A DNA stretch of 48,343 bases, from the NCBI GenBank assembly GCA_029556545.1, contig JAKQEQ010000156.1, forward strand, positions 1 to 48,343, given 5' to 3'. Position 1 is the stretch's first letter. Every line of letters begins with the position of its first letter. Under the pieces are notes generated by a model. That model did not search any database. It worked only from the letters and a program-made list of their open reading frames with translations, and had not been told where the DNA came from. Positions 2,700 to 21,730 of this stretch are shown in pieces. The translations under genes were made by a program, and so were the position numbers. Source of the stretch: Candidatus Hydrogenedentota bacterium. Its GTDB lineage: Bacteria; Hydrogenedentota; Hydrogenedentia; Hydrogenedentales; JAGMZX01.

Positions 2700-2868
2700 A
2701 ACGGAGAACCGCCGCAACAATCCCGCCTGATGGGCAAGATTCGCCACAACGGCGGGACACGTCACGAACGACTTGGCCCGGGGCGGCGGATAGGCTACCA
2801 TGAGGGACCTTTCCCCGAGGCGCGCGGCGGCGGATGGCGCGAGCGCGGTCTCGCGGCGGAGACCTTGT

Positions 2869-4188
2869 GTGAACGTTATCCTCATGATGATCGACACCCT
2901 GCGCGCGGACCATCTCAGCTGCTACGGGTATCATCGCCCGACCTCGCCGAACATCGACGCTTTCGCGGCGCGGTCGGTGTTCTTCGAGCGGCATTTCGCC
3001 ACCTCGATCCCGACCCATCCCGCGTTCACGACGCTGCTGTCGGGCCAGCACGCCATCACGCATGGGGTTGTCGCGCACGGCGCACCGCAACCGCTGCCGC
3101 GCACGATCCCCTGGCTGCCGGCGGTCTTCCAGAAAGGGGGCTACACGACGTGCGCCATTGACAATCTGGCGCAAACGCGTATGGGTTTCCTGCGCGGTTT
3201 CGAGTTTTACATCGACCCGAGTCAACGCCAGACGCTGAGTCTCACGTGCGACAATCGCGAAATCAACCGCCGCGCCGTTCAGTGGATCGAAGCCCACCGC
3301 CGTGACCGTTTCTTCCTGATGATGCACTACTGGGACCCGCACACGCCGTATATGCCGCCGCCGCCCTATCGGCGACTGTTTTACTCGGGCGATCCGAGCG
3401 ACCCGGAGAACCCCACCCTCGAAGGTATGGAGCGGCACCCGCTGGGGAGGATGTGGCGCGAGACTTGGTTTCGCGGCCTCGAGGGACACGTCACGGATGC
3501 CGAGTACATTGTCGCGCTGTACGACGGGGAAATTCGGTACTGTGACGAGGGAGTGGGCGCGTTTCTCGATACGCTCGACCGGCTCGGCCTCGCGGACGAC
3601 ACGCTGGTCGTGCTGCTGAGTGACCACGGCGAGATGATGTACCGCCATGGCATCTTCTTCGACCACCACGGCCTGTATGACGGCAATCTGCACGTACCGT
3701 TTCTCGTGCGGCATCCCGGCATCGCGGCGCGGCGCATCACGTCGATGACCACTCACGTTGACGTGGCGGCAACTCTGCTTGCGTGCTGCGGCCTCGAGGC
3801 CCCGGCGGAAATGGAAGGCGAGGACCTGACGCCGTGGATGCGCGGCGCGCGGGAGGATGTGACGCACGAGTACGTCGTCAGCCAGGAATGCACCTGGCAG
3901 ATGAAGTGGTCGCTGCGCACGGATACGCACAAGTTCATACTTTCCCGCGAGGAAGATTTCTACGGCACGCCGCCACGGGAACTGTACGACTTGCGCGAGG
4001 ACCCGGATGAACTGCGCAACATCGTTGACCACGCGCCGGAACTCGCTTGCGAACTCGAGGCGCGCCTCGAAGCCTGGATAGGCGACGGCATGACGCGGAA
4101 CGGGCTCGAGATGGACCCCCTGATCGCGCATGGCCTCACCCTCGGTAGGGCCTGGAAGGCTGAGCGGGCGGGACAGACGCCCGCGTGA
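2869..4188 (+). CDS. Sulfatase-fold hydrolase with Thr at the nucleophile position
   Basis: A 439-residue member of the alkaline phosphatase/sulfatase superfamily. Metal-ligand blocks are clear: IDTLRADHLSCYGY at the N-terminus, YWDPHTPY near residue 155 and LLSDHGE with D252-H253. At the nucleophile site, where sulfatases carry C/S-x-P-S-R, it reads T49-H-P-A-F, so it cannot make formylglycine there. Thr is the nucleophile in phosphodiesterase and lipoteichoic-acid-synthase relatives, so a phosphoester or phosphonate substrate is plausible (inference). The GTG start is chosen because GGAGA lies 6 bases upstream and the family normally begins a few residues before this block. An in-frame ATG at 2800 has no visible ribosome site. 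No signal peptide is seen. Confidence 0.85.
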   Translation: MNVILMMIDTLRADHLSCYGYHRPTSPNIDAFAARSVFFERHFATSIPTHPAFTTLLSGQHAITHGVVAHGAPQPLPRTIPWLPAVFQKGGYTTCAIDNLAQTRMGFLRGFEFYIDPSQRQTLSLTCDNREINRRAVQWIEAHRRDRFFLMMHYWDPHTPYMPPPPYRRLFYSGDPSDPENPTLEGMERHPLGRMWRETWFRGLEGHVTDAEYIVALYDGEIRYCDEGVGAFLDTLDRLGLADDTLVVLLSDHGEMMYRHGIFFDHHGLYDGNLHVPFLVRHPGIAARRITSMTTHVDVAATLLACCGLEAPAEMEGEDLTPWMRGAREDVTHEYVVSQECTWQMKWSLRTDTHKFILSREEDFYGTPPRELYDLREDPDELRNIVDHAPELACELEARLEAWIGDGMTRNGLEMDPLIAHGLTLGRAWKAERAGQTPA

Positions 4189-4273
4189 ACGCCGCAGCGC
4201 CCGAGCCGGACGCGGGATGGTGCGCAAGGGTGGTGGCGCGCGCGCATGCGGGTTGCTACACTGGAGCGGCGAC

Positions 4274-4969
4274 ATGGGAGGAGACATGGGCAGCGGCGAG
4301 TTCACGAGTGAAGAGCTGATTAGCGAGTGCGCGGACCCCGTCGCGCTCGTACCGTTTGTGCCCCGTGCGGCGCGGCGCATTCTGGTCTGCGGCGGGCGCG
4401 CAGGCGTGCTTCCGGGGGCGCTCGCGGGGCGCGCCGATGCCGCAGTGGCTTGCTGGCCGGAAGGGGGCAACGTGCCCGGGGGACCCATCGAGGCGGCGCC
4501 GCTTCCCTTCGCGGACGACTACTTCGACTGCATCCTGGCGGCGGACCTGCTGGCCCGCCTTCGCGAGCCGGAAGTGGTGTTGTGCGAACTGCGCCGCGTC
4601 CTCGCGCCGGGCGGGCTGCTGATTGCGACAGCGCCGAACCTCCAGTATTTCGGCACGGTGTTCATGGTACTGCAGGGGCGCTGGGCCTACGCGGACAAGG
4701 GTATTCTCGCGCGCGGCCACGTGCGATTCTTTACCGGCGTCGAGGTCGCGGAACTGCTCGACGCGGCGAAGTTCGAGGTGCGTTCCCTGTCCAGCCTGGT
4801 CCTCGCCGACCCGTCGCGCCTTCCCCGCGACGCGGACGGCTGCATCCGCGCGGATCGCATCCGCGTCGGCCCGTTGAATGACACGGAGTACCAGATCTAC
4901 CGGACCAGCCAATTTGTCGCACTGGCGGTGAAGTCAGATGCGCCCGCCGCAGCCCTGGGGCCGTCATGA
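4274..4969 (+). CDS. Class I SAM-dependent methyltransferase (type 11-like)
   Basis: A 231-residue protein. ILVCGGRAGVLPG matches the glycine-rich SAM-binding loop in degenerate form. The block LPFADDYFDCILAADLLARL and the following ELRRVLAPGGLLIATAPN are typical motifs of methyltransferase 11 family enzymes. The methyl acceptor is unknown. ATG 4274 is chosen because GGAG lies 7 bases upstream; ATG 4286 is also possible. The stop overlaps the glycosyltransferase start as ATGA, which implies translational coupling and a shared role, perhaps in surface glycan or lipid modification (inference). A TACACT -10-like box lies at 4257-4262. Confidence 0.82.
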   Translation: MGGDMGSGEFTSEELISECADPVALVPFVPRAARRILVCGGRAGVLPGALAGRADAAVACWPEGGNVPGGPIEAAPLPFADDYFDCILAADLLARLREPEVVLCELRRVLAPGGLLIATAPNLQYFGTVFMVLQGRWAYADKGILARGHVRFFTGVEVAELLDAAKFEVRSLSSLVLADPSRLPRDADGCIRADRIRVGPLNDTEYQIYRTSQFVALAVKSDAPAAALGPS

Positions 4970-6687
4970 ACGTGCTCGCTATGGGCATCGCCCTCTGGGG
5001 CGACCGCGCACACCTCGATTTGTACCGCTCGACGCGCGGTCACGAAGTCCGGCTGCTCGCGCTCGCGGGCGACGCGGACTTCCATTTCAAAGCCGACGAG
5101 ACCGCGACGGAGGTGGTGGGGCGCGTCGCGGCCGAGTGGCCGCCGGACGTACTGCTCTGCGGCTGCCCCGAAGTGTTGCCGCCGCCGCGCGAAGTCGAGC
5201 GTTGCCCTATCAAGACGGTCGCGTTGCTATCGGACTGGAACTTGTACCAGCCGCAACTCGAACATAATCTTGCCCGTTTCGACATCGTGCTAAGCGATCG
5301 CCTCGCTGAGCGGGAACTGTGCGTATGGGGCGCGCGACCACATTTCGTGCAGCCGCTGTATGCGCACCGCACGCTGGTTCATCGCCCGCTCGAAATCGAC
5401 CGCGACATCGACGTGCTGTTCCTCGGCAACCTGAACCACGCGATCCACCGCGAACGGGGACGGATGCTCGAAATCGCGGCGCGCCTGTCGGACGAGTATC
5501 GCGTGCTCATCGACGCGGGGTATCCACCCGAGGATTACGCCCGGCATCTGAACCGCGCGCGGATCGTCGTAAACCACGCCGTGCGCCGCGAAATGAACCT
5601 GCGCTGTTTCGAGGCGCCCGTGTGCGGGGCGCTACTCTTCTTCGAGGATGCGAATCTCGAAGCGGGCGATTACCTCGCGGACGGTGAACAGGCGGTGCGG
5701 TACAACGCGGGGAACCTCGAAGGGCTGCTTCGGACCTATCTCGACGACGAAGAGAAACGCGCGGCGGTCGCGCGCGCAGGGCGTGAACGAATCGCCGGCC
5801 TCGCTATCGAGCGTCGCCTGGACGACTTGTTCGATTGGATGGAGGTCCAGCCGCGCGGTGCGCGGCGATTCCTCGAGTTGCCCGAGGCCGTGCGCGCCCT
5901 TGCCGACGTCATGCTCTATGCGTCGAGTCTTGAAACCGAGCAGCGCGCGCTGGCTGCGGCGCTTCTGGGCGAACTCCTCGGACGGGACCGGACGCCCCCC
6001 TGCCTCATGGCCGCCGGATGCATGCTTTTCGAAGAAGCCGCGCTCGGCGGTTCCCCCGACGCCGCGAAGACCGTGCGGGCCTGCGTGGACCGCTTCCAGG
6101 AGGCGGCGCAGACGGCCCCGACCGACGCCGCGCCGTGGTTCAACTTGGCGGTCGTGGCGCGCCAGGCCAACGCGGGCATCGCCGAGCTGGAATGCCTGCG
6201 GCGCGTGCTCGACGCGCACGACGTCGCGTTGAGCCCCTTCGCGTTGGGTAAGGTGACCGACCCGTACTACGCCGCGTGGCGGCTGGCGCTGGGCCGCGGC
6301 GCGATGAGCCCGGCCCTGTTGCAGGCGGCGGCAGCCGCGCGACTCGCCGAGTGCGCGCTTGAGCGAGGGGACAACGGCGATGCCCTCGAGTTCGCGCGGC
6401 AAAGCATCATGCTCCGCCCGGAAATTGCCGTTCCCTACCGCTGGGCGGCGATGGCGCACACGCGCGCGGGCGCCAACGACGAGGCCGCGCGGCTACTCGA
6501 GGTCGGCCTGCCGCATACCGCCTTCGACGTGGATTACCGGCTGGACCTGGTGAGCGCATACCGTGCGCTGGGTCGCCACGACACGGCGCGCGCGTTGGCG
6601 ATCGAGTCGGCCCGCATTTTCCAGGCGTGTCCGCCCCTGCGCCGCCACGCGATCCAGTTTCGGTCGCTGGCGGTGGAAGACGGCTGA
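4966..6687 (+). CDS. CgeB-like glycosyltransferase with C-terminal helical repeats
   Basis: A 573-residue protein with two parts. Residues 1 to about 300 resemble the CgeB/glycosyltransferase-1-like family: a Rossmann-like start (MNVLAMGIALWGD), a segment IDVLFLGNLNH and the nucleotide-sugar block NLRCFEAPVCGALLFFED near residue 210. The C-terminal half (about 330-570) is alpha-helical with TPR-like repeats, for example the helix pair around ERGDNGDALEFARQS. It probably transfers a sugar in the cytoplasm. Translation is coupled to the methyltransferase gene by an ATGA overlap. Donor and acceptor cannot be deduced. Confidence 0.78.
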   Translation: MNVLAMGIALWGDRAHLDLYRSTRGHEVRLLALAGDADFHFKADETATEVVGRVAAEWPPDVLLCGCPEVLPPPREVERCPIKTVALLSDWNLYQPQLEHNLARFDIVLSDRLAERELCVWGARPHFVQPLYAHRTLVHRPLEIDRDIDVLFLGNLNHAIHRERGRMLEIAARLSDEYRVLIDAGYPPEDYARHLNRARIVVNHAVRREMNLRCFEAPVCGALLFFEDANLEAGDYLADGEQAVRYNAGNLEGLLRTYLDDEEKRAAVARAGRERIAGLAIERRLDDLFDWMEVQPRGARRFLELPEAVRALADVMLYASSLETEQRALAAALLGELLGRDRTPPCLMAAGCMLFEEAALGGSPDAAKTVRACVDRFQEAAQTAPTDAAPWFNLAVVARQANAGIAELECLRRVLDAHDVALSPFALGKVTDPYYAAWRLALGRGAMSPALLQAAAAARLAECALERGDNGDALEFARQSIMLRPEIAVPYRWAAMAHTRAGANDEAARLLEVGLPHTAFDVDYRLDLVSAYRALGRHDTARALAIESARIFQACPPLRRHAIQFRSLAVEDG

Positions 6688-6771
6688 TCCGGGAAAATCC
6701 TGGCCGGGGCCGGCTGTCCATTTTCTCGGCTGCCGCGTATCTGTACAATGGTTCAAAGAGGAACTTGCGCC

Positions 6772-9700
6772 ATGCTTTCGTTCTTCTTGCGGGACAGGGA
6801 CGCGCGGTTGGTCCGGGCCGCGCTGGCGGGGCGATCCGCCGCCTTCGAGCGCCTGGTGCAGCGGTACCTGCCGATGGTGCATGCGCTCGCGTGCGCGCAC
6901 GCCGGGGACGCCGACGCCGAGGACGTGGCCCAGGAAGCTTTTCTGCTAGCGTATCACAAGCTGAACACCCTGCGCGAGCCGCGCAAGTTCGCGGGCTGGC
7001 TGGCGACGATTACGCGCAACGTCGCGCGCCGCGCCGCGCAGAAGCGAGCGCGGGAGGTCCCCCTCGAGGACGCCGCCGCCGCGGAACAGACCGTGGACCC
7101 CGCCGTCGAACAGCGGGAACTGGCGGCGCTCTTGCGCGAACACCTCGATCGCATGGAAGACGAACAGCGTGAGGTCCTGCTCCTGTATTACTTCGCCGGG
7201 CGGACCTTGCCCGAGATCGCCCGGATTCTCGATATCTCGCAGGATGCCGCCGCAAAGCGGCTCCAGCGCGCCCGGCAGGCCCTTGGCGAGCAGCTGTTGG
7301 GCGAGGTGGCCAAGGCCGACCTTCCCCGGCCCGACTTCGACGGTCGGCGGCGCGTCATCATGGCGGCGATCGTCGCCGCGCCCGCCGCGTGGCAAGCCGC
7401 CGCCGCCACGGCCGCCGTCTCGATCAGCGCGAAACTGCTCGTGGGCGCGGCGGTGGTGAGTGCGACGGCAGTTGGGACGGTGTTCGGGCCCGCGCTCTGG
7501 AAGGAGCACGCCCCGCAACCCGTGTCTTCGGAACCATCCGCGGCGGTTACAGAGTCGGCGCGTGCCGACGCCGAGGATGCCAGCGGGCGACCGGAAACGG
7601 CGACCGACGCGGAGCAGCCCCTCGACACGCGCACGGGCCCCGGCATCGTGCGAGGGCGCGTGGTGGACGCGGCGGGGAATCCGGTCGCGGGCGTGCAGGG
7701 CTTTGTCGAGCTTGTCGACTGGGACCCGCCGGAACCGCCGCCGGCCAAGCCGTTCCGCCGTTACGGCGAGACCGACGCGGACGGATACGCCGAGTTGCGC
7801 GACCTGCCCTTGGGCCCGTACGGGATCATCGTCTGGAAGGGCAGCCAGGCCGATGCGGCCATGTTCTTCCTGAGCGAGCGGTATCCGGTCGAGGAGGAGT
7901 CGCTCGTGCTCAAGCCTACGCTGCCGCTCTCGGGGCGCGTGCTGGACCCGAACGGCGCGCCGGTGACCGGCGCGTGTGTGTTTCCCCATCGGTACATGTT
8001 GGCCCCCGACGAACAACTGCCCCACGAAATGACCTATCCCGCGCGACAACAGACGGACACCGAGGGCCGGTTCTCCTTCCCGCATCTCCCGCCCGGCAGC
8101 ATGCAATTCCTCGTCGAGGCGGCCGGATTTCCCGCCACCGTGTCTCCCTACATTGTCTCCGGTGCGAGCGACGCCGTGATCACCCTCGCGCACGGGGGCC
8201 GCGTCGAGGGGCGCGTCGTTCGCGAGGATACCGGCGCGGCCGTGCCGAACGTGGCCATTCACTGGTGCGCGGATACCGAGCGGCGACGCACCTTCCGCGT
8301 GGAGGCGGACGCCGAGGGCCGCTTCCTGACCGACCCGCTGGCCCCCGTCGCCCACACCGTCACGATTGACGACCCGGCGCTTGTCCCGGTGGACCCCGAA
8401 TTCGCGATCACGCCCGCCGCTGGCAAGACCCTCAAGGCGGACATTCCCGTTCGCCTCGGCGCCATGGTCTTCGGCAAGGTTACCATCCGGGAAACCGGCG
8501 AGCCGGTCGTGGAAGCCCGGATATCGCTGCAGTCAGAGAAGATCAGGGCATACCGCCACACAAAAACCGACGCCTCCGGCTCATACATTTTCCATGGGCT
8601 GCAACCCGGCCACTGGGAACTAATTCTTAACATGCCGGAAGGGTACGCTTACGGACCGGGAAGCCTTCAGGAGCAGCGGTTTATCCTCACGGGCGGCGCT
8701 GAGGTGGAACACAATTTCAGTATCCAGCAAGGCGTCAGTCTCCTGGGCCGGGTAGTGGACGCGCGCGGCGTTGGGGTCGCGGGCGCGGAGATTCGCACGG
8801 AAAACCGTTATGACTATAGCTGTTACATCTCGGACGCGCGCACCGGTCCGGGCGGGCGATTCCGTATTCCAGGCGCGCCGCCCAATACGACGACAGAACT
8901 GTATGCGTTTACACGGGAACAGCGCAGTTACGTACAGAGGGTCGAAATGGGGCCGCTCGGCTCGGAGCCGCTCGAGATCGTGATCGAGATGCCGGACTGC
9001 GCCCGGATCACGGGGAGCGTCTCGATGGCCGGGGTCTCCCTCATCGAACGCCTTCAATATCGCCATCAGTTGCGCCTGAAATCGGCGGACGAGCGTATTC
9101 CAAGCCGCATTGAAAGCTCGGCGGATATGGCCGGCGCGTTCAACTTGCGCGGCATACCGCCCGGCGAATACGAGTTATTCCTGAAAGCGCTCGGCGGTCA
9201 CGCCGAATGCCTTGTCACGACCCTGCGCCTCGAACCGGGCCAACAAGTCGACCTCGGGCGCATCGGCTGCGCCGACCTCGGCGGGCTGGCCCTCGGCGGG
9301 CGCGTGTTCTCGCCCGAGGGGCGGCCTATCCATGCGGCGCAGGTATGTCTCAAAGGCCTTCTTGACCGTGAGATGTGGACCAGCGTGGATGGACGATTCC
9401 GCTTCGCCGGGCTCGAACCCGGCCTGTATACCGTGACGGCGACTCACCGGGACTACTCGGGGCGGAACCTCGAAAGCGACGCAGGAGCGGAAGACCTGAG
9501 TATCGCGCTCGAATCGGCCGGAAGCATCGCGGGCAAAATACGAGCTGCTCGGACCGGCAAGCCTATAACCCAAGGCACGATCCGCAGCGAGTGGTGGTAT
9601 GCCCGCGTCATGTGCAGTTACGCGTCCGAGCCTCGACGAACGACGACGGACGACGTTGGCGCCTTCCTGCTCGATAAGATGCCCGCGGGCAGCGGCAAAG

Positions 9701-10938
9701 TGTTCGTCGAAGCGCCGGGGTACGTCCAGTTTACGCAAGAGGTGAGTCTTGATCCGGGCGAGCGCATCGAGGGGCTCGAAATCGCGCTCATGCAGGCCAT
9801 GCGCCTCGAAGGGGTGGTGTATAGCCCGGGCGGCGCGCCTGTGGACGACGCGGAAGTCCAATTGTATCTGCTGGACGCCGAGAGGGCATCCAAGACGCGC
9901 ACGGACGAGGCGGGCGCGTTCGTATTCACGGACGCCGACCCGGACGGCGGCTTCATACAAGTCCGGAGCAAGGGGTTTGCACCGCACACGCACGAACTGA
10001 CCCCGGCGGAGCTTCATAGCGGCAAAGTCGTGATTACGTTGGACCATGGTGGCATTATCGAGGGACGCATCCGGGTGGGCGATCAGCCGCAATCCGGCCG
10101 GATCCATGCGTGGCCGAAATTCCAGAGAGGCCGCCCGGAAAGCTCCAGCGCCAGTCAAGATGTCGGCGAGGACGGCGACTTTCGCCTGGAAAGCTTGGCG
10201 CCAGGCGAATACAGGGTTAGGGCAAGTGTGGACATTGCCGACAAGACGACGTCCCGGATGGGGCGCTCCGTGGAAAGGCAGGTCTTCGTCGAGGCGGGAA
10301 GTGTCACGATGGTGGACTTCCAATTCGAGGCCGCCACGGCGGTGGTCGAGGGTATGGTGCATCTGATTGGCTTGGCGGCGACCGATTTGCGCGTTGCCCT
10401 GAGAACAGTAGGCGAGGGTCAGGAGGAAGAACTCGACGCAGATGCCCGCGGCGGGATGTTTCGTTTTCCTGCCGTACCGGCGGGGCCGGTGATGCTCACC
10501 GCCTCTTGCAGCACATCGGACGGACAGTACCGTGGCGCGGAATTCCTTGAAGTGGTCGCCGGCGGCGAGTACCACGTCGAACTCACATTGCAGCGCCAGG
10601 AAACCGTTACCATTGCTGCCTCGCCGCTGGTGGACGGCGAGCATTTCTCGGCGTACTTCGTCCCGGAAGCTGTGGCGGGGTTCCTGCCCAATCCAATAAC
10701 CCCCGAAATATGGGAGTCCGACTACCAGCGCATTTCGCGCCTGATTGCGTTTTGGGTCAGTTTCGGTGACGATGACGAGACCACAGTGGACCACGTCCCG
10801 CCCGGCGACTACCAGATAGTGGTGCGGTATGCGGTCCTCGACGACGCCTGGAACGCAATATCCGAGAGCATCGGCCAGCAGCGCGTCACCGTTACCGGCC
10901 AGCCCGGACAGGTGATCACCCTCGAACGGCCTGAATAG
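6772..10938 (+). CDS. Giant ECF sigma factor fused to carboxypeptidase-regulatory-like repeats
   Basis: A 1388-residue fusion. Residues 15-85 form sigma region 2 (QRYLPMVHALA, DAEDVAQEAFLLAYHKL) and 115-172 form region 4 with a helix-turn-helix (LPEIARILDISQDAAAKRLQRARQAL), as in ECF sigma factors. A hydrophobic Ala/Val-rich segment at about 196-241 probably crosses the membrane. From about 275 to the end there are many beta-rich repeats of the carboxypeptidase-regulatory-like/SpaA-like type, each with G(x)V.D..G.PV...V and T(D/E).(D/E)G.F.F..L.PG.Y signatures. The ATG at 6772 is preferred because AGAGGA lies 9 bases upstream; ATG 6748 overlaps the likely -10 TACAAT (6744-6749). No separate anti-sigma gene is adjacent, so the tail may itself regulate the sigma domain. 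Confidence 0.88.
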   Translation: MLSFFLRDRDARLVRAALAGRSAAFERLVQRYLPMVHALACAHAGDADAEDVAQEAFLLAYHKLNTLREPRKFAGWLATITRNVARRAAQKRAREVPLEDAAAAEQTVDPAVEQRELAALLREHLDRMEDEQREVLLLYYFAGRTLPEIARILDISQDAAAKRLQRARQALGEQLLGEVAKADLPRPDFDGRRRVIMAAIVAAPAAWQAAAATAAVSISAKLLVGAAVVSATAVGTVFGPALWKEHAPQPVSSEPSAAVTESARADAEDASGRPETATDAEQPLDTRTGPGIVRGRVVDAAGNPVAGVQGFVELVDWDPPEPPPAKPFRRYGETDADGYAELRDLPLGPYGIIVWKGSQADAAMFFLSERYPVEEESLVLKPTLPLSGRVLDPNGAPVTGACVFPHRYMLAPDEQLPHEMTYPARQQTDTEGRFSFPHLPPGSMQFLVEAAGFPATVSPYIVSGASDAVITLAHGGRVEGRVVREDTGAAVPNVAIHWCADTERRRTFRVEADAEGRFLTDPLAPVAHTVTIDDPALVPVDPEFAITPAAGKTLKADIPVRLGAMVFGKVTIRETGEPVVEARISLQSEKIRAYRHTKTDASGSYIFHGLQPGHWELILNMPEGYAYGPGSLQEQRFILTGGAEVEHNFSIQQGVSLLGRVVDARGVGVAGAEIRTENRYDYSCYISDARTGPGGRFRIPGAPPNTTTELYAFTREQRSYVQRVEMGPLGSEPLEIVIEMPDCARITGSVSMAGVSLIERLQYRHQLRLKSADERIPSRIESSADMAGAFNLRGIPPGEYELFLKALGGHAECLVTTLRLEPGQQVDLGRIGCADLGGLALGGRVFSPEGRPIHAAQVCLKGLLDREMWTSVDGRFRFAGLEPGLYTVTATHRDYSGRNLESDAGAEDLSIALESAGSIAGKIRAARTGKPITQGTIRSEWWYARVMCSYASEPRRTTTDDVGAFLLDKMPAGSGKVFVEAPGYVQFTQEVSLDPGERIEGLEIALMQAMRLEGVVYSPGGAPVDDAEVQLYLLDAERASKTRTDEAGAFVFTDADPDGGFIQVRSKGFAPHTHELTPAELHSGKVVITLDHGGIIEGRIRVGDQPQSGRIHAWPKFQRGRPESSSASQDVGEDGDFRLESLAPGEYRVRASVDIADKTTSRMGRSVERQVFVEAGSVTMVDFQFEAATAVVEGMVHLIGLAATDLRVALRTVGEGQEEELDADARGGMFRFPAVPAGPVMLTASCSTSDGQYRGAEFLEVVAGGEYHVELTLQRQETVTIAASPLVDGEHFSAYFVPEAVAGFLPNPITPEIWESDYQRISRLIAFWVSFGDDDETTVDHVPPGDYQIVVRYAVLDDAWNAISESIGQQRVTVTGQPGQVITLERPE

Positions 10939-20498: not shown

Positions 20499-20864
20499 AT
20501 GGGTCGTATATTCTTGCGCGTGGAAGTGAAGAACGCAAAGGGAGTTCATGCCAGACCCGCCAGCTGTATTGTGCAAGCTTGCTTACAAGTGAGTGTTGAT
20601 ATCGAGTTATGGTGTTGGGAGGGGGCTTACTATAAGATGGTGAATCCACGCAGCATTATGGCGCTGCTGACTTGTGCTTTGACGCGAGGAACCGTGTTTT
20701 ACCTATGTCTACGCGGGTGTGAGGGTGCGGACCTTGATGCAGCCGTGACGCAACTCAAGACAAGATTGGAATACGCCGGATCCAGTGGTCGCGACCTGGA
20801 AACCGGCATTACGGTCATTGATGAGCAGCAACTGCCGGAACAACTGCGAAAGGTCCTGGCATGA
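20499..20864 (+). CDS. HPr-like phosphocarrier protein
   Basis: A 121-residue protein whose first 90 residues match HPr. The phosphohistidine loop KGVHARPAS carries H17 (equivalent to His15) and R19 (Arg17). The regulatory segment NPRSIMALL places S52 at the HPr-kinase serine (Ser46), and the end of the domain (ADLDAAVTQLKTRL) fits the last HPr helix. About 30 extra C-terminal residues are unusual for HPr. In PTS systems HPr accepts phosphate from enzyme I; no enzyme I or PTS permease gene is in view. The stop overlaps the REC-TIR start as ATGA, so the two are translationally coupled. GC is lower than in neighbouring genes. Confidence 0.85.
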   Translation: MGRIFLRVEVKNAKGVHARPASCIVQACLQVSVDIELWCWEGAYYKMVNPRSIMALLTCALTRGTVFYLCLRGCEGADLDAAVTQLKTRLEYAGSSGRDLETGITVIDEQQLPEQLRKVLA

Positions 20865-21730
20865 CGGGACGCAGGCCAACAGTTCTTTTTGTCGAGGACG
20901 AGAACTACATCCGCGCGGAGTTTTCCAGAATCCTTGTACAGGAAGGCTATGAGGTCATCGATACGGACAGGCCGGATGTGGCGATAGACCGCATGGAAGA
21001 AACGCCGCAAATAGATCTGCTCATCGCTGACGTACAGATGTCGATCGAGGATTCCAAGTACCTCAGCAATATGCGAACGCAAGGCGGCAAACTCGCCGGT
21101 CTGGAGGTCGCCCGGCACTTTCGCCGTTACTATCCATCGGCGCCGGTCCTGTTCTGGACCTACTCGTATGACCGCGAGTTGCGTCTCGCGATTCGAAAAA
21201 TGGGGAACGCACACCTGGTAAGCAAGCGGGTGGAAGCCGATTTTCTCTTAGACCTGATTGCGGAGGCACTGGAGGGATACAAGGGGGGACAACGTCCGCG
21301 GGCATTCATTGTCCACGGACATGACGAGCCGTCTCTTGGCGAACTCATATCTTTTCTTAAGGAGGACTTGGGGTTCCCGGCGCCCGTCGTGTTGCGGGAG
21401 CGCGCGTCGAGCGCGCAGACGCTTATTGAACGGGTGGAGGACGAGGGTCTGAACGTCGATGTTGTATTCGTGTTGTTGACGCCTGACGACAAAGTCGTGA
21501 CGGAGGACGGGCTCGGCTTTGTATTCCGGGCTCGGCAGAACGTGTTGCTTGAACTGGGTTTCTTCTTGGGTCTGCTCGGGCGCGGCACAGGGCGCGTTAT
21601 CCTGCTGCACAAGCAGCCCGTCGAGCTGCCGTCGGACTTGGGTGGGGTGGTGACTGTGGATATCACAAACGGGGTCCGCGGCCAGGAGGCAATGTTGCGC
21701 GACGCGCTCAGCGAATGGACCGCGCATTGA
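20861..21730 (+). CDS. Response-regulator receiver fused to a TIR-like (CAP12/Pycsar-type) effector domain
   Basis: A 289-residue two-domain protein. Residues 6-140 are a CheY-like receiver with E12, D13, phospho-acceptor D57 (LLIADVQM), T100 (LFWTYS) and K122 (LVSKR) all present; a roughly 20-residue insertion follows D57. Residues 147-285 match the predicted nucleotide-binding TIR-like family of Pycsar/CAP12 effectors. It has FIVHGHDE, TLIERVE, VVFVLLTPDD, RARQNVLLELGFF with candidate catalytic E231, and LPSDLGGV. Family members cleave NAD+ when activated and cause growth arrest or death of infected cells. Here the cyclic-nucleotide sensor is replaced by a receiver, so phosphorylation may control activity (inference). 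No histidine kinase gene is adjacent; the overlapping HPr-like gene is the natural candidate partner. Confidence 0.88.
   Translation: MTGRRPTVLFVEDENYIRAEFSRILVQEGYEVIDTDRPDVAIDRMEETPQIDLLIADVQMSIEDSKYLSNMRTQGGKLAGLEVARHFRRYYPSAPVLFWTYSYDRELRLAIRKMGNAHLVSKRVEADFLLDLIAEALEGYKGGQRPRAFIVHGHDEPSLGELISFLKEDLGFPAPVVLRERASSAQTLIERVEDEGLNVDVVFVLLTPDDKVVTEDGLGFVFRARQNVLLELGFFLGLLGRGTGRVILLHKQPVELPSDLGGVVTVDITNGVRGQEAMLRDALSEWTAH

Follow-up and report, generated by a model that had tools for sequence, protein, structure and literature searches.

A stretch of 48,343 nucleotides (hereafter the window; contig JAKQEQ010000156.1, or C96, of a fragmented 6.1 Mb metagenome-assembled genome from Candidatus Hydrogenedentota) contains a gene in which an extracytoplasmic function (ECF) sigma factor, a predicted membrane helix and a tail of CarboxypepD_reg repeats are joined in one protein of 1388 residues (Table 1). 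ECF signalling across the cell envelope usually takes at least two proteins, the anti-sigma factor being the membrane-spanning one. I propose, with a probability of roughly 0.6, that the fusion protein is a signalling device in itself, with a tethered cytoplasmic sigma factor, an exterior tail, release of the sigma factor and feedback on its own gene.

In the proposed mechanism the sigma domain would reside in the cytoplasm, tethered at the inner membrane via one helix, and the 1100-residue tail would lie outside, in the periplasm or at the surface. Tethering, probably together with a juxtamembrane motif around a tryptophan (the W-motif), would hold the sigma activity low or off; I propose tethering itself as the silencer because no zinc-finger anti-sigma factor is present. 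A change in the tail or the linker would free the activity, most likely by site-1 cleavage within the disordered linker and a subsequent intramembrane cut by an RseP-like protease, after which the released sigma factor and RNA polymerase would act on TGTCCAT-N15-GTATCTGT before the gene and cause positive feedback. I infer the membrane insertion and the exterior tail from the comparisons below; what I say of the signal, of the proteolysis and of the W-motif's function is speculative.

Sigma domain and reading frame

Sigma regions 2 and 4 are both complete and region 3 is absent, as in the ECF group (group 4; Pfam, NCBIfam), and the core-binding residues D51, Q54 and F57 of region 2 are invariant, both in the family alignment and in an alignment with 58 other ECF sigma factors. 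The original prediction, which was made from the letters of the window, of a functional-looking ECF sigma factor is thus borne out by the intact regions and the conserved core-binding residues. AlphaFold2 (AF2) models the sigma domains confidently, and the model matches SigW, CnrH and sigmaE. The nearest solved structures are the ECF sigma/anti-sigma complexes SigW-RsiW and CnrH-CnrY (TM score 0.72-0.75), but I do not read inhibition from this likeness, as AF2 may favour compact sigma forms. A literature search found no report on sigma factors of the Hydrogenedentota.

The protein is encoded in a single uninterrupted open reading frame on the forward strand, which ends at 10938 and has two possible starts, ATG 6748 and ATG 6772. 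The latter is the likely functional start, because it is preceded by AGAGGAA and the promoter lies upstream, ending 27 bases before it, whereas ATG 6748 lies just 3 bases past the -10 element. An error of assembly or sequencing that joined two genes, named in the original prediction as fatal to its proposal and conceivable in a fragmented genome, is ruled out by three observations, and its probability is next to nothing. A genome of the same genus encodes a protein of 1411 residues with the same architecture, 33% identical to the window protein over residues 6-1266; sigma domain, helix and tail share one open frame in dozens of further, independent assemblies; and the GC content by codon position remains coding-like through the junction.

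Membrane helix and tail

Hydrophobic segments were scored on a Hessa-type insertion scale (dG), with glycophorin A, bacteriorhodopsin and myoglobin as controls. One best segment is found directly after sigma region 4 in all 45 family members scored, with a dG of at most 0.1 in 43 of them; L022 has 0.52, and the window protein 0.83. In most of these proteins the value for the family helix is far below that of any segment in the tail. In the window protein (residues 220-243) it compares with 1.4 for residues 192-216, 2.15 for the best segment of the tail and 3.55 for the sigma domain. A single membrane helix is therefore predicted as the consensus for the family, and is borderline for the window protein. 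The hydrophobic segment first placed at residues 196-241 thus divides in two: a membrane helix is predicted in its later part, but the residues around 192-212 belong to the W-motif and are predicted not to span the membrane. Trp207 of this motif (7390-7392), located between sigma region 4 and the helix, is invariant in an alignment of 13 members, and a tryptophan is kept at this position in 36 of 45 members of the wider family. I also considered two membrane helices, which would place the tail inside, and rejected them, as the segment before the helix has a dG of 1-4 across the family and is often charged.

The tail had been described as about 1100 residues of carboxypeptidase-regulatory-like repeats, in agreement with the 11 separate stretches of CarboxypepD_reg that Pfam finds (overall E 9.3e-90). 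It is probably located outside, in the periplasm or at the surface. The best evidence for this comes from 22 relatives without a sigma domain, in which a homologous tail is borne behind an N-terminal signal anchor or, in the case of L226, behind a signal peptide; the presence of STN, a periplasmic-type domain, in the tails of two other family members (L045 and L188) agrees with this location. The suggested topology, with the sigma domain inside and the repeats outside, is favoured by the single predicted helix and by these anchored or secreted homologues, although the helix of the window protein itself is weak.

In a tree of the tails, which is weak owing to repeats and long branches, sigma-borne and anchor-borne tails are intermixed, and at least four changes are forced by well-supported branches, so that tails and anchors appear to have been exchanged in evolution. 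At one locus (L212, 4100-8201, contig 167 of G000) the fusion is seen in split form, with a gene for a signal-anchored CarboxypepD_reg tail closely preceded by a canonical ECF gene. I rejected this as a general arrangement: an ECF gene adjoins the tail gene in only this one of 20 loci with N-anchored tails, which argues against a general linkage of the two.

Promoter

Comparison of the regions upstream of orthologous genes revealed an element TGTC(A/C)A(C/T)-N15-G(C/T)(A/G)TC(A/T) with identical spacing throughout. It fits the hallmark of ECF promoters, AAC at -35 and CGT at -10 (PMC8103513), of which the copy in the window is a variant. As the search patterns were written from some of the matched sites, I regard as fair tests only a matrix test on members not used as seeds, the uniqueness of the element in whole genomes, and newly recovered members. 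In the matrix test, the best match falls within the expected zone of 27 bases in 13 of 34 non-seed members (3.4 expected, p 1.2e-5), against 2-3 of 34 in the reverse-strand control, and the matrix threshold is reached by 7 of the 34 versus none of 22 anchor-only tail genes. Three whole genomes (G000, G001 and G021), that of the window and those of two relatives, each contain TGTCMAY-N15-GYRTCWRT only once, always before the fusion gene, and the reversed form of the pattern has no match in them. Two further subfamily patterns give 13 matches, nine of them before fusion genes; all exact patterns together thus yield 16 matches in the searched genomes, 12 of which are directly upstream of fusion genes (reversed control, 0). 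Two members that had not been used for writing the patterns, in G061:C127 and G062:C379, were recovered as well.

The element in the window is probably the gene's own, autoregulatory promoter. ECF sigma factors often autoregulate, and from this habit I infer that the sigma factor of the window would use the promoter of its own gene. The conservation and uniqueness of the promoter would imply that the sigma domain is functional and directs the expression of the gene that encodes it.

Anti-sigma factors and alternative explanations

Most ECF sigma factors are controlled by an anti-sigma factor, which the fusion had been suggested to replace. A zinc-finger pattern (Cys/His) is present between sigma domain and helix in none of the 45 family members, nor did the Pfam scan of the window protein find one, and I therefore rejected the idea of a zinc-finger anti-sigma remnant before the helix, where a loose likeness to the pre-helix segment of anti-sigma factors can be seen. 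At 39 loci no zinc-finger anti-sigma gene, the only type searched for, adjoins the fusion gene; such genes adjoin 6 of the 12 canonical ECF genes in the genome of the window. The suggested replacement agrees with the absence of zinc-finger anti-sigma factors from the protein and from next door.

Several points weigh against the proposed mechanism. Among the 45 proteins scored, the window protein has the weakest helix, one rich in alanine and glycine; the parameters of the insertion scale were entered by hand; and AF2 shows one long helix of lower confidence (residues 189-232), which merges the membrane helix with the segment preceding it. The hydrophobic stretch may accordingly not be inserted at all, and the protein could be wholly cytoplasmic with the tail as a ligand-binding or scaffold domain. 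I consider this improbable, given the strong helices at the same place in nearly all relatives, the signal-anchored or secreted proteins that bear homologous tails, and the STN domains in two tails of the family.

The search for anti-sigma factors covered zinc-finger types only, which is a further point against the mechanism. A separate anti-sigma factor, of an unrecognised type or encoded elsewhere, could still be in control, with the tail as an accessory sensor, as would be usual for an ECF sigma factor. However, the lack of a zinc-finger anti-sigma gene beside the 39 fusion loci, and the neighbourhoods that are not conserved among relatives, make this rather unlikely.

The genome of the window encodes an RseP-like M50 protease, but M50 proteases are found in nearly all bacteria, so that its presence permits release without supporting it, and no site-1 protease or ligand was identified for the window protein. 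As a rival reading, the sigma factor could be tethered but never released, acting while still membrane-bound as CadC and ToxR do, with the tail exerting control by conformation or clustering. The anatomy would be the same, and after the helix I identified only a disordered linker and no conserved autocleavage or site-1 domain. Nevertheless, a sigma factor must join the holoenzyme and reach scattered promoters, and one known fused relative, IutY, is released (PMC8999054), as has been proposed for another, SCO4117 (PMC5826349); I hold permanent tethering to be unlikely, if somewhat less so than a separate anti-sigma factor. Proteolytic release is plausible by analogy with these two proteins.

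Finally, a motif search for target promoters, which had been recommended upstream of surface-protein genes, located the promoter of the gene itself, but none before other surface-protein genes. In the genome of the window, sites with one mismatch show no convincing excess (8 versus 6 in the control), which also speaks against the mechanism; with up to 2 mismatches in 15 positions, the closely related genomes G038 and G057 have 10 versus 10 and 11 versus 12 sites. In both, the sole perfect site precedes the fusion gene, while all the imperfect ones that were inspected fall within coding sequence. Some genomes show a modest excess of mismatch sites (66 versus 31 in the control over five), and the search was confined to close matches at the fixed spacing. 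It is a tentative and rather doubtful idea that the main or only target of the sigma factor is its own gene, which would make the protein an exported repeat protein that carries its own transcription factor, a self-amplifying surface protein.

Comparison with known systems

The closest parallel is ECF52, reported only from Actinobacteria, in which an ECF sigma factor, a membrane helix and an exterior proline-rich and binding region are likewise joined in one protein; for SCO4117 of Streptomyces coelicolor positive autoregulation was suggested and proteolytic release proposed (PMC5826349). The membrane helix after the sigma domain of ECF52 has a predicted counterpart in all 45 members of the Hydrogenedentota family scored here, but a borderline one in the window protein (dG 0.83). 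ECF52 has a carbohydrate-binding module, however, whereas the tail of the window protein has only CarboxypepD_reg-type domains, and ECF52 has a zinc-finger domain of the anti-sigma type between sigma domain and helix. The window protein would work like ECF52 yet is no member of it, because this defining zinc finger was tested for and is absent. The general kind is thus already known from ECF52; new here are the promoter and the large family without zinc fingers.

In IutY (ECF243) of Pseudomonas putida the sigma factor is also joined to a membrane-spanning extension, and its activity requires cleavage by Prc and RseP (PMC8999054). This extension is a FecR-like anti-sigma domain that works with a TonB receptor, whereas Pfam finds neither FecR nor STN in the window protein, and STN tails among its relatives are restricted to L045 and L188. 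RsgI of Clostridium thermocellum similarly combines a cytoplasmic regulator, one membrane helix and exterior sensing modules, and is released by RseP (PMC12203970), but carries an anti-sigma instead of a sigma domain, and its autocleaving periplasmic domain was not identified in the window protein. ECF41, ECF42 and ECF56 have a C-terminal extension (SnoaL or TPR) in place of an anti-sigma factor as well; these extensions are short, soluble and cytoplasmic, unlike the tail described here.

The phylum appears to have a large family of sigma factors that themselves span the membrane, without a recognisable anti-sigma domain and with interchangeable exterior tails, and one protein may act as sensor, switch and product. 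So many natural variants of one architecture could help to find out by what means a sigma factor can be kept silent through tethering alone, and the promoter makes this question testable by a simple reporter in a laboratory strain.

Family and distribution

I searched 68 genomes, all from the order of the window organism, with a model of sigma region 4, W-motif and helix (cut-off E <= 1e-15). The family is found in 36 of these (21 of the 38 good ones), and nearly all matches are long open frames. The genome of the window and its genus mate have one copy each, G033 has about 15 and G048 about 20. The architecture that was thought remarkable in size and tail is therefore real, but no one-off, as the family numbers well over 100 in the phylum. 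The tails vary, from CarboxypepD_reg arrays and STN to none recognised or nearly no tail. In a tree of the sigma domains a core of 31 members is grouped with 98% support (Shimodaira-Hasegawa-like approximate likelihood ratio test, SH-aLRT), and the best tree places five more outside it. This placement would suggest that the fusion arose twice independently, a reading that was not adopted, as a single origin is not rejected (approximately unbiased (AU) test, p 0.41).

The architecture is wider than one phylum, as such proteins are present in Phycisphaerales and Poribacteria. An uncultured member of the Phycisphaerales (L197) has the same layout of sigma domain, helix and CarboxypepD_reg in an open frame of 1377 amino acids. 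One genome of the Poribacteria (G078) encodes some 14 ECF sigma factors, each roughly 1000 residues long, and the one that was read (L203) has a hydrophobic helix at about residue 221, followed by a different large tail.

Some variants deserve mention. The STN tails of L045 (7944-10370), which also has a weak FecR_C match, and of L188 (2423-4867, reverse strand) suggest a possible link to TonB-type cell-surface signalling. Several hydrophobic segments follow the ECF sigma domain in L166, L169, L179, L140 and L198, as a multi-pass version of the tether. In L184 (2466-4088, G033) the ECF sigma domain is followed by what looks, by eye in the translation, like the start of a protein kinase (GYGPMGSVYIAEH...VAVKIL).

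Table 1. Features of the sigma fusion gene and its upstream region, in window coordinates
Feature	Position	Strand	Basis
ECF-type promoter: -35 TGTCCAT (6715-6721), 15-base spacer, -10 GTATCTGT (6737-6744)	6715..6744	+	orthologue comparison
Ribosome-binding site AGAGGAA	6757..6763	+	seen directly in sequence
Gene for ECF sigma / membrane helix / CarboxypepD_reg repeat protein, 1388 residues	6772..10938	+	open reading frame, Pfam, full-length relatives
Sigma region 2, residues 28-94	6853..7053	+	Pfam PF04542 Sigma70_r2, E 1.9e-13
Sigma region 4, residues 121-171	7132..7284	+	Pfam PF08281 Sigma70_r4_2, E 4.2e-11
Juxtamembrane W-motif IxAAxxAAxxxWxA, residues ~192-212	7345..7407	+	family alignment; without zinc-binding residues
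Candidate single membrane helix, residues 220-243	7429..7500	+	dG 0.83, the lowest value in the protein
Disordered Ala/Pro/Ser/Glu-rich linker, residues 244-290	7501..7641	+	composition across family
Tail, residues 291-1388, with 11 or more CarboxypepD_reg domains of the prealbumin-like beta-sandwich type	7642..10935	+	Pfam PF13620

Neighbouring genes

Upstream of the fusion gene, and co-directional with it, the window contains genes for a sulfatase, a methyltransferase and a glycosyltransferase (2800-6687, forward strand). This run is not conserved around the relatives, and a search for conserved partner genes beside the fusion genes found neighbourhoods that differ among relatives. Elsewhere in the window, a protein of 289 residues (20861-21730, forward strand) combines a response-regulator receiver with a CAP12/Pycsar-type TIR domain, an unusual pairing.

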